Shown piece by piece: positions 24,885 through 28,311 of a stretch of 44,431 bases of DNA. The stretch comes from a virus. The DNA is taken from positions 1 to 44,431 of IMG/VR virus record IMGVR_UViG_3300010397_000022, one strand, 5' to 3'. Numbering within the stretch: position 1 is the stretch's first letter; every line of letters starts with the position of its first letter. The notes under the pieces are model-generated. The model had not been told where the DNA came from and did not search any database. It saw only the letters and a program-made list of their open reading frames with translations. Both the position numbers and the translations under genes were made by a program.

Positions 24885-25012
24885 ACGAAGCGTAAAGGCG
24901 TCCGGTTGAAAACCTGTCACGTCCAGCAATTTAGGACTTGACGCAACGTAAGCATTGCATTAGATCATGACGCAACGTCACCATTGAGGACATGCAAATG
25001 ATTACGCAACGT
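24885..25012. repeat. Cluster of ACGCAACGT-type elements
   Basis: Cores at 24885-24893 (ACGAAGCGT), 24941-24949, 24970-24978 and 25004-25012 (all exactly ACGCAACGT). Related cores: 25150-25158 (ACGTTACGG), 21815-21823 (ACGTAACGG) and 19871-19879 (ACGCAACGT). Flanks often extend to CCTT on the left and AAGG on the right, making an imperfect palindrome of about 17-18 bp. Best read as regulator binding sites or iterons. Confidence 0.6.
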
Positions 25013-25178
25013 CAACCAAGCGCACGCAAGGGGAGGAAAGGGGACCCGCCAGGGTTTTTTCAGGGGACCGGGGGGTATGGTTCTTTTCGTTTCAGCGACG
25101 GCCGGGCCTCCCCGGCGTAAACGATAAACCCCATTTTCCCCTGTCCCTTACGTTACGGCAGCATTTGAATAGCAGAGC

Positions 25179-25268
25179 GCATCACCCCGCGCCCGCCGCA
25201 TTCCGGGGCTTTCTAATCCATCGCAACAGTGCTAGAGCATCACCCCCCGGCCCCGGCATCTCGGGGCT
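25179..25268 (+). repeat. Duplicated leader unit with hairpins before the Acb2-like gene
   Basis: GCATCACCCC ... CGGGGCT-TTCTAA at 25179-25216 recurs as GCATCACCCC ... CGGGGCT-ATTAA at 25237-25273, offset 58 bp. Each unit can fold through its C-run and CGGGG arm; in the second the stem GCCCCG/CGGGGC (25250-25267) is followed by CATGGGAGAATATCA and the ATG at 25290. Confidence 0.6.
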
Positions 25269-25289
25269 ATTAACCATGGGAGAATATCA

Positions 25290-25850
25290 ATGAACGGAAT
25301 TCATCCAGCCCCGGCCAACTTCACCGCCGAGCAAATCTCGACCGACCCCATCCTGCATTTCTTCCACTATGCCCACTTGCCTGCGGCGCTCCAATCCGCC
25401 TCGTCCCCATTCTGCGCGCTGGCCTCCCACATTATCACGACGCTGCCGCGCAACGCCGAGCGGACGGTAGCTCTGCGCAAGCTGCTCGAAGCGAAGGACG
25501 CCGCAGTCCGGGCCAACGTGGGGCCGGCCGCTCGGGTGGAAGAGACTTTCGAGGATCGCCTTCGGAAAGAGCGCACCGACCTCTACGATCGGTTGAAGAA
25601 ACTCACGCCGTTCATGGGCACGACGAGCTTCTACGCGCTGCCGATGGCGCAGCAGGAAATGCTTAACGAGCAGCACGACGCCATGGCGCAATATCTCGAC
25701 GTGCTGACACGCCGCTGCCTCGACCTCGGACTGCTCAAGCCTTCCGATTTCCCCGGAGGCGTCGGGCTGGAAATCGACCCCGAGGAAGGGCGGTCGGACG
25801 TGCATGTCATCGGTGATTTCTCCGAGGACCCTCCGCGCTTTGGGAACTAA
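25290..25850 (+). CDS. Acb2/Tad1-hairpin protein (probable anti-CBASS cyclic-nucleotide sponge), two domains
   Basis: A 186-residue protein, first gene of the rightward unit. Residues 21-76 (ILHFFHYAHLPAALQ ... TLPRNAERTVALRKLLEAKD) match the helical hairpin of the Acb2/Tad1 family as I recall it: an N-terminal helix, then P-x-x-x-ER-x-x-AL-x-K-L-x-E-A. Acb2 proteins assemble into hexamers that bind cyclic di- and trinucleotides and so blind CBASS defence. Residues 84-146 form a second helical unit (YDRLKKLTPFMG ... ALPMAQQEMLNEQ ... YLDVLTRR) similar to the crAss001_48-like domain often found beside it. Immediate-early position fits anti-defence. Ligand binding is inferred. Confidence 0.75.
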   Translation: MNGIHPAPANFTAEQISTDPILHFFHYAHLPAALQSASSPFCALASHIITTLPRNAERTVALRKLLEAKDAAVRANVGPAARVEETFEDRLRKERTDLYDRLKKLTPFMGTTSFYALPMAQQEMLNEQHDAMAQYLDVLTRRCLDLGLLKPSDFPGGVGLEIDPEEGRSDVHVIGDFSEDPPRFGN

Positions 25851-25872
25851 TCCCCGGCCAGGGTATTGAGGG

Positions 25873-25900
25873 GGTGCCGGTTGGCGGGAGCCGGCACCCT
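25873..25900 (+). promoter_or_regulatory. Hairpin before the 25920 gene
   Basis: Arms GGGTGCCGG and CCGGCACCC (9 bp) with a 10-base loop, then CATTTGGAGATGGACT and ATG. No U-tract follows. Part of the recurrent hairpin-then-start layout. Confidence 0.6.
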
Positions 25901-25919: not shown

Positions 25920-26300
25920 ATGACCGACAAGCACAAATCCGCACCCGGCACCCCCGACCATGGCACGCCGGACACGTCCCGCGAAAAGATCGACAAGATG
26001 GCCCATACCGGCATCGAGGGCCAGCAGGACAGCAACCCCGGCGATCCCGTCTTGAACGACGCCACGGACAGCAGCGTCCCCAACGCCACGCAGCCCTTTT
26101 CCTCGGGCCTCCAAGCCTCGGGCGAATTCCGGGTCGGCGAGAAGATCACCTTCGGCGTCCGCAATGGCAATATCCTGGTCCGCAAGGCCGGCTCGGGCGA
26201 CGAAATCGAAGTGTCGGAAAGCACCATGGCCGGCATCTTCCTCGATACCCTGTTCGGCCCCGACGCCAAGAAATACGCCGCCAATATTGACAGGGGCTAA
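25920..26300 (+). CDS. Early protein of unknown function, acidic disordered N-terminus
   Basis: A 126-residue protein. Residues 1-65 are polar and probably disordered (many Asp, Ser, Pro, Thr). Residues 70-126 form a small beta-then-helix domain (EFRVGEKITFGVRNGNILVRK ... STMAGIFLDTLFGP). The ATG at 25920 has GGAG eight bases ahead. A terminator follows, so this gene and the Acb2-like gene may form their own early transcript. Confidence 0.7.
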   Translation: MTDKHKSAPGTPDHGTPDTSREKIDKMAHTGIEGQQDSNPGDPVLNDATDSSVPNATQPFSSGLQASGEFRVGEKITFGVRNGNILVRKAGSGDEIEVSESTMAGIFLDTLFGPDAKKYAANIDRG

Positions 26301-27474: not shown

Positions 27475-28311
27475 GTGACGAAAGTCCTTGGGCACTATCG
27501 ACTAGCGTCGCTCGCTATGGGCGACGATGTGACCCTCACGCGCTACGTGCGCGACGACCGGGGCCACAATTCCCGTCGCCGGACGCAACCGCGTCTGCCA
27601 GGGCTCGAAGCCGGTTTCATCCAAGAGGGCCGGACTAAATTTGGCAAGAGCGTGAAGCGCGTCGATCAGATGAAGCACATGCTCGTGTCCGGGCACAGCA
27701 ACGTCAAAATCGGCCGCGACGTGCGCAAGGGGCATCACCGGGGCAAGCGCATCTACACGCTATCGCTGGAAGAGCGTAAAACCTGCCCACGCACCTGCCA
27801 GCACTGGCAAAGCTGCTACGGCAACAATATGCCCTATGCGAAGCGGATAGATCACACCGACGCCGATTTCCTGCCGACGCTGGAAAAGGAAATCAAATGG
27901 CTCTTGAGCCTGCCGACGCACAAGGCCGGCGTCCTCATCCGCCTGCACGCCCTCGGGGATTTCTTCGACGTGCCTTATGTGCTGTTCTGGCACCGGATGC
28001 TCACCGAACACCCTCGGCTCGCGATTTTCGGCTACACGGCCCGCCAGCCGTGGCGCAAGCCCGATGGCTTCCCCATCGGCTCGTTCGTCGGAAATGCGCT
28101 TGCCGACATGAACAACAAATTCCCCGGCCGCTCCATGATCCGATTTTCGGACGGGAAGCGCCCTACCATGTCAACCGTGAGCATTGGCGAGGCGTCCAGC
28201 CGTCCGGCGAACGCTTTCCAGTGCCCGGAGCAAACCGGACAGACCCGTTGCTGCGCGACGTGCGGGGCTTGCTGGTCAACCACGAAAAACGTCGCCTTTT
28301 TGGAGCATTGA
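27475..28311 (+). CDS. Gp88-family phage protein
   Basis: A 278-residue protein with the marks of the Gp88 family: VKIGRDVRKGHHRGKRIYTLSLEE (about 77-100), the cysteine set CPRTCQHWQSCYGNNMP (Cys104, 108, 114), VLIRLHALGDFFDVPYV and AIFGYTARQP, and a second cluster near the C-terminus, TRCCATCGACW. The three-cysteine opening has been compared with radical-SAM enzymes, but no reaction is known to me. GTG start with GGAG seven to ten bases ahead. The family is widespread in actinobacterial and proteobacterial phages. Confidence 0.8.
   Translation: MTKVLGHYRLASLAMGDDVTLTRYVRDDRGHNSRRRTQPRLPGLEAGFIQEGRTKFGKSVKRVDQMKHMLVSGHSNVKIGRDVRKGHHRGKRIYTLSLEERKTCPRTCQHWQSCYGNNMPYAKRIDHTDADFLPTLEKEIKWLLSLPTHKAGVLIRLHALGDFFDVPYVLFWHRMLTEHPRLAIFGYTARQPWRKPDGFPIGSFVGNALADMNNKFPGRSMIRFSDGKRPTMSTVSIGEASSRPANAFQCPEQTGQTRCCATCGACWSTTKNVAFLEH

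Follow-up and report, generated by a model that had tools for sequence, protein, structure and literature searches.

One of the closest described systems with which the locus was compared is Acb2, a viral sponge that takes up bacterial immune signals, represented by T4 Vs.4 (7uq2), the protein of Pseudomonas phage p26 (8h2j/8ixz), homolog 43 (9ptq) and the Pfam family PF24729. The Acb2 protomer consists of one short N-terminal helix and two long antiparallel helices (PMC10419184). In T4 Acb2, cyclic dinucleotides are no longer bound after the Y8A substitution, and F82 forms a stacking contact with the ligand (PMC12657218). Published work describes Acb2 as relatively rare and limited to certain phage groups (PMC11722364). 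Another established sponge is Tad2 (PMC12043709). The gene analyzed here is located in a virus sequence of 44,431 nt from IMG/VR (hereafter the window) and encodes a protein with two small helical domains and a C-terminal tail. The N-terminal helical domain (N-domain) is best explained as a divergent module of the Acb2 superfamily with a nucleotide-sponge function, and we assign this reading a probability of about 0.6.

The coordinates of the features are given in the table below, where L numbers denote the loci compared. An earlier note made from the sequence had described an open reading frame with two helices, HYAHLPAALQ and TLPRNAERTVALRKLLEAKD, followed by a second helical domain. The translation indeed includes both stretches, and its ATG follows a GGGAG sequence. 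Seventeen residues precede the N-domain. Two relatives, L001 and L002, share both domains and show 71% and 63% identity across the whole protein; for the N-domain by itself, over 500 relatives were found in IMG/VR. The gene is therefore not a chance reading frame. Residues 14–78 matched the family phrog_1761 (E 1.8e-25) and also phrog_5120 (E 3.4e-15). Neither family has a functional label, and phrog_1761 is very common in phages.

Table. Features of the two-domain gene and its flanks in the window.
Feature	Position	Strand	Basis
Three direct repeats, TGACGCAACGT type, operator-like	24935..25014		divergent intergenic region
GGGAG, candidate ribosome-binding site	25278..25282	+	sequence; ATG 7 nt further on
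Two-domain gene	25290..25850	+	open reading frame and translation, 186 aa; same-architecture relatives L001, L002
N-domain, phrog_1761 family, divergent Acb2/Tad1-hairpin-like	25341..25526	+	residues ~18-79; phrog_1761 match, AlphaFold2, family-level PF24729 signal
crAss001_48 domain	25542..25715	+	residues 85-142; PF21825; predicted helical hairpin
C-terminal tail, acidic, PP-x-F at end	25740..25847	+	alignment with L003, L004; L084 similar
Perfect 9-bp inverted repeat, no T-run	25872-25880 / 25891-25899		3' of stop codon

The second helical domain was found to belong to a named family, crAss001_48 (PF21825), with an E-value of 3.4e-15 and 56.1 bits, above the gathering score of 24.8. Its model is a helical hairpin (pLDDT 95.6), and a Foldseek search of the BFVD library with this model placed a crAss001 protein at rank 8. 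The domain had earlier been said to be of unknown role; its function still has no label, but the family has a name and elsewhere is fused or adjacent to Tad2. In L003 and L004, the N-domain and the tail are present and the crAss001_48 domain between them is absent, and in L004 the gene directly upstream ends with a crAss001_48 domain. Comparison of these architectures with those of L001 and L002 indicates that the domain comes and goes as one unit, the tail being retained without it. The fusion of phrog_1761 to crAss001_48 was seen only in the window protein, L001 and L002; most crAss001_48 members found are stand-alone or located behind other N-terminal domains. Scans of IMG/VR for further crAss001_48 loci returned only loci already known, or no usable pattern. 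One mixed full-length alignment was left out, in which rows containing only crAss001_48 had been set on the N-domain. A stand-alone crAss001_48 gene was observed in Aeromonas phage 44RR2.8t.2 (L201:1489-1692) near a pyruvate formate-lyase-like gene, a neighbourhood that we take to be the one where T4 has vs.4 (Acb2).

The relationship to Acb2 was assessed using profile searches. The window protein had no match to PF24729 at E<=1, and the whole window had none at E<=10; the curated cut-off of this model is 27 bits, and the positive control, T4 Vs.4, scored 71.5 bits. Thus, the profile search proposed in the earlier note as a check turned out negative for this protein. Searches of Pfam, NCBIfam, PADLOC and the PDB that started from the window protein likewise gave no match to the hairpin family. 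A different result was obtained at the family level. When a diverse sample of 119 members of the N-domain (phrog_1761) family was scanned with all 24,736 Pfam models, PF24729 was matched below threshold by 20 of them (best E 3.5e-4), which made it the most frequent Pfam family, the runner-up being matched by nine members (best E 0.026). In a PF24729 search of 32 records, sub-threshold matches of 13–16 bits fell exactly on the N-domain family genes of phiV141, AGM16 and martha; one comparable match fell elsewhere, in DumpsterDude, and this result is therefore weak by itself. L298 and L299 were considered as bridge sequences and rejected, as they match PF24729 and are not members of the N-domain family.

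A search of 177,635 PDB sequences with the N-domain family profile placed Acb2 homolog 43 (six chains) second, with an E-value of 0.67 and an alignment that is ungapped across the hairpin loop. The member L290, from a Brevibacterium genome, shares 17 of 32 residues with the 9ptq fragment (single-comparison E 3e-7). In an ungapped comparison over 40 residues, the window protein has 13 identities with homolog 43 (score 40) and the best member 17 (score 60), and neither score was matched in any of 3000 shuffles; this comparison was picked after the profile search, the hypothesis under test having been stated earlier. BLASTP with the window protein alone produced no alignment with the Acb2 homolog fragment. 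A profile–profile comparison (hhalign) of the family with alignments of 10–17 Acb2 sequences did not reach significance and did not outperform controls with shuffled columns, so it was not used as support.

Modeling of the N-domain using AlphaFold2 (116 sequences) led to a single-chain model with a pLDDT of 96 and helices at residues 3-8, 15-34 and 39-57, that is, one short helix followed by two long antiparallel helices. In the model, this is the layout of the Acb2 protomer. A Foldseek search of BFVD with the model returned proteins named Acb2/Tad1 hairpin at 14 of ranks 7–31; six matches rank above these names, at least five of them 44–66% identical. With the crAss001_48 hairpin as a control, no Acb2/Tad1 protein was found in the top 50 of the same library, and the enrichment is thus not general to helical hairpins. 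Foldseek against the PDB with the N-domain model gave no Acb2 in the top 50 and only noise.

These data bear on whether the resemblance could be a convergence of simple helical hairpins, the N-domain family being unrelated to Acb2. Helical hairpins are common, and neither the direct profile–profile tests nor the PDB structure search recovered Acb2. On the other side stand the first place of PF24729 among the Pfam families matched by members, the identity between L290 and the solved homolog 43, which share the hairpin register without a gap, and the silence of the control hairpin, and we regard convergence as quite improbable. The N-domain and the Acb2/Tad1 hairpin superfamily are likely to be homologous. 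The earlier designation "Acb2/Tad1-type" is accordingly retained at the superfamily level, on the sub-threshold PF24729 matches, the 9ptq homolog and the predicted fold with its control, but not in the sense of a direct Pfam match of the window protein. A literature search of incomplete coverage found no paper on phrog_1761, nor on crAss001_48 together with Tad2; neither the Acb2 link of phrog_1761 nor its association with crAss001_48 and Tad2 was found in the literature covered, and the Acb2 link is new here.

The residues of the ligand site were then compared. Y27 stands at the place matching Y8/Y11 of Acb2, with a register off by about one residue, and this position is Y, F or W in 109 of the 119 members. 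K26 is invariant in the Acb2 sequence set compared; no counterpart in the first long helix was found in the 119 members, where the matching stretch S38-x-P-F41 carries no conserved lysine. The C-terminal stacking phenylalanine (F82 in T4) also has no counterpart, the third position after R74 being L, V or I in 118 of the 119. The N-domain family has its own invariants, namely H29, L30, E57, E67, K69 and R74, of which E57, E67, K69 and R74 are invariant across all 119 members. The pocket of this predicted Acb2-like fold must therefore differ from that of Acb2, the K26- and F82-like positions not being conserved, and the ligand may differ too.

Sequence conservation in the N-domain family is very high, which counts against an arms-race protein, where it would be unusual. 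Together with the spread across phyla and the loss of both pocket positions, this would fit a protein that is homologous to Acb2 and no longer a sponge, whose strictly conserved surface (HLP, E57, RKLLE-KD, R74) is a docking site for a conserved protein of host or phage, crAss001_48 being another protein-binding hairpin. Stand-alone members occur in many places, including among the head–tail genes of Gordonia phages and beside a holin, which is also in line with such an accessory role; however, small sponge proteins have no fixed place in phage genomes either. The operon and fusion link to Tad2 described below, including a swap in one slot (L255 versus L235), argues against this explanation as well, and we consider it unlikely.

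The genetic neighbourhood was surveyed in 221 non-redundant loci of the N-domain family (1.46 Mb). Tad2 was found in five of them, always on the same strand and within 300 bp; the Tad2 model had been built partly from these loci, and Pfam confirms Tad2 at E 8e-26 to 2e-23. Neighbouring crAss001_48 domains were found in 10 of the 221 loci, in eight of them within 210 bp. Tad2 therefore adjoins only about 2% of the family loci and crAss001_48 4–5%, and among 79 virus records with the N-domain family Tad2 was present twice and adjacent once, G024 being the record of L028. Because most N-domain family genes have no such neighbour, the link is an association and not a proof. The N-domain of L241 and L255 is preceded, within the same protein, by an N-terminal domain that carries Tad2 in L235. 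A fusion of crAss001_48 to Tad2 occurs in Bacteroides phage BS162P1 (L207:890-1516, WAX08897.1), and Alcaligenes phage QDWS595 encodes them in adjoining genes that have PF13876 in common. At the level of association, then, Tad2, the N-domain and crAss001_48 act as modules that can replace one another.

Several further arrangements were observed. A domain absent from Pfam (domain X; IGTK...GYxSWSPxxVFExaY; phrog_872/9467/32732) was located at L235:5189-5450, L255:4734-4995 and L216:5228-5446; what comes after it depends on the phage and may be Tad2, crAss001_48 or the phrog_1761 domain. In a Novosphingobium profundi prophage (L218:4321-5422), genes for X-Tad2, the N-domain and crAss001_48 follow one another with 4-nt overlaps, which makes this locus a candidate for a ready-made anti-defence operon. 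At L218:4321-4980, its Tad2 is preceded by a Cys-rich, anti-TRAP-like N-terminal segment, and Ochrobactrum phage OH (L005:765-1133) has a similar Cys-rich segment (CxxCxG-type) ahead of the N-domain; in both cases, "anti-TRAP" is only a sub-threshold label.

The known sponge genes adjoining the family are Tad2 and never canonical Acb2: no canonical Acb2 above the PF24729 cut-off was found in the records carrying the N-domain family. This could mean that the signals sequestered by the N-domain are of the Thoeris type (cADPR), like those of its Tad2 neighbours, and not those of CBASS; this would be a ligand variant of the sponge reading. Nevertheless, the Tad2 and Acb2 families each bind several signal types (PMC12043709), so the ligand cannot be deduced from a Tad2 neighbour. 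Canonical Acb2 was present in only 9 of 399 genomes, and given this rarity its absence beside the family is weak, uninformative evidence. Restriction to Thoeris signals appears rather unlikely.

The gene opens the rightward arm of the window and is preceded by about 0.4 kb of non-coding DNA that contains three ACGCAACGT repeats, in agreement with the earlier placement of it as the first rightward gene behind a control region. There are four exact copies of ACGCAACGT in the window, three of them in the intergenic array, against an expected 0.38; four copies were reached in none of 100 shuffles. Genes whose products replicate or modify DNA (DNA polymerase, primase/helicase, methyltransferase) lie leftward, and further along the rightward arm are those for the terminase large subunit (30606), the portal, the scaffold and the major head protein. 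In view of this arrangement, the suggestion of immediate-early expression is unsupported. The terminator placed behind the gene in the same note is a hairpin only; an intrinsic terminator was rejected as unproven because the inverted repeat lacks a T-run.

Just upstream of the gene, two GC-rich 35-nt copies with 80% identity (25176-25210 and 25234-25268) end in CCGGGGCT and CTCGGGGCT; in the second, CCCCGG...CTCGGGG is formed ahead of the ribosome-binding site, and L001 is preceded by a similar leader. The next gene (25920-26300) encodes 126 aa with the motif GEFRVGExIxFGxRNGNxLxR; it had no Pfam or PHROG match, and a gene like it adjoins the N-domain gene in L001 and L004 too. Further on in the rightward run, the gene at 27475-28311 encodes a GP88 family protein (PF17338 E 1.5e-6, phrog_2554 8e-26), a family without known function. 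The closest N-domain relatives that share the N-terminal extension (iHPAPxxFTxxEI) were found in Sphingopyxis, Novosphingobium and Sphingobium genomes, which suggests that the host is probably a sphingomonad.

According to the preferred sponge reading, the gene product would be a counter-defence protein of two small phage modules. The N-terminal module would represent a divergent branch of the Acb2/Tad1 hairpin superfamily (PF24729) that has carried no label until now; it would oligomerise, presumably into a hexamer, and hold a nucleotide immune signal between protomers. A CBASS, Thoeris or other signal-based effector would then stay off. The crAss001_48 domain would be an interchangeable partner, shared with Tad2, that probably contributes additional oligomerisation or binding. 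The computational analysis showed the two domains, the distant relationship to Acb2, the layout of the protomer and the genetic link with Tad2 and crAss001_48; the window protein could plausibly sequester CBASS signals.

A broader version of this reading, which we put forward tentatively and with odds somewhat against it, is that phrog_1761 forms a branch of the Acb2 superfamily, very large and so far overlooked, which takes up a nucleotide immune signal by a pocket chemistry of its own, within a modular sponge toolkit in which it, Tad2 and crAss001_48 are exchanged behind common N-terminal domains; in that case, crAss001_48 would be a sponge or an oligomerisation module in its own right. The phrog_1761 family occurs in phages of Proteobacteria, Actinobacteria, Planctomycetes, Cyanobacteria and others, and if it is an Acb2 branch, few small phage proteins would be commoner than Acb2-like sponges. 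A large unannotated family would thereby gain a testable function, and a lead would be provided on crAss001_48, a domain ranging from crAss-like to T4-like phages. Since the pocket residues differ from those of Acb2, a different signal is suggested, possibly a defence signal not yet known as a target.

With respect to known families, the N-domain is a member of phrog_1761/phrog_5120, for which a functional label is absent, and the second domain is a clear member of crAss001_48 (PF21825). Tad2 (PF11195, DUF2829) has fusion partners and operons in common with the N-domain (domain X, crAss001_48) and differs from it in fold and sequence; no Tad2 domain was found in the window. The C-terminal two-helix hairpin of Tad1 (Thoeris anti-defence 1) belongs to the same Pfam family, PF24729; unlike the window protein, in which no beta strand is predicted in residues 18-80 and only a 17-residue tail stands ahead of the helices, Tad1 has an N-terminal beta-sheet domain. 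The N-domain differs from Acb2 in having no over-threshold PF24729 match and no counterpart of K26 or the stacking Phe, in its own invariant HLP and RKLLE-KD signature and in its fusion to crAss001_48. It shares with Acb2 the predicted short N-terminal helix and two long antiparallel helices, an aromatic residue ahead of the first long helix, there in a register off by about one residue, and the K-L-x-E-A register in the second, and with Acb2 homolog 43 also the hairpin length and loop, without gaps (LPEGREKS versus LPDGPEKS).
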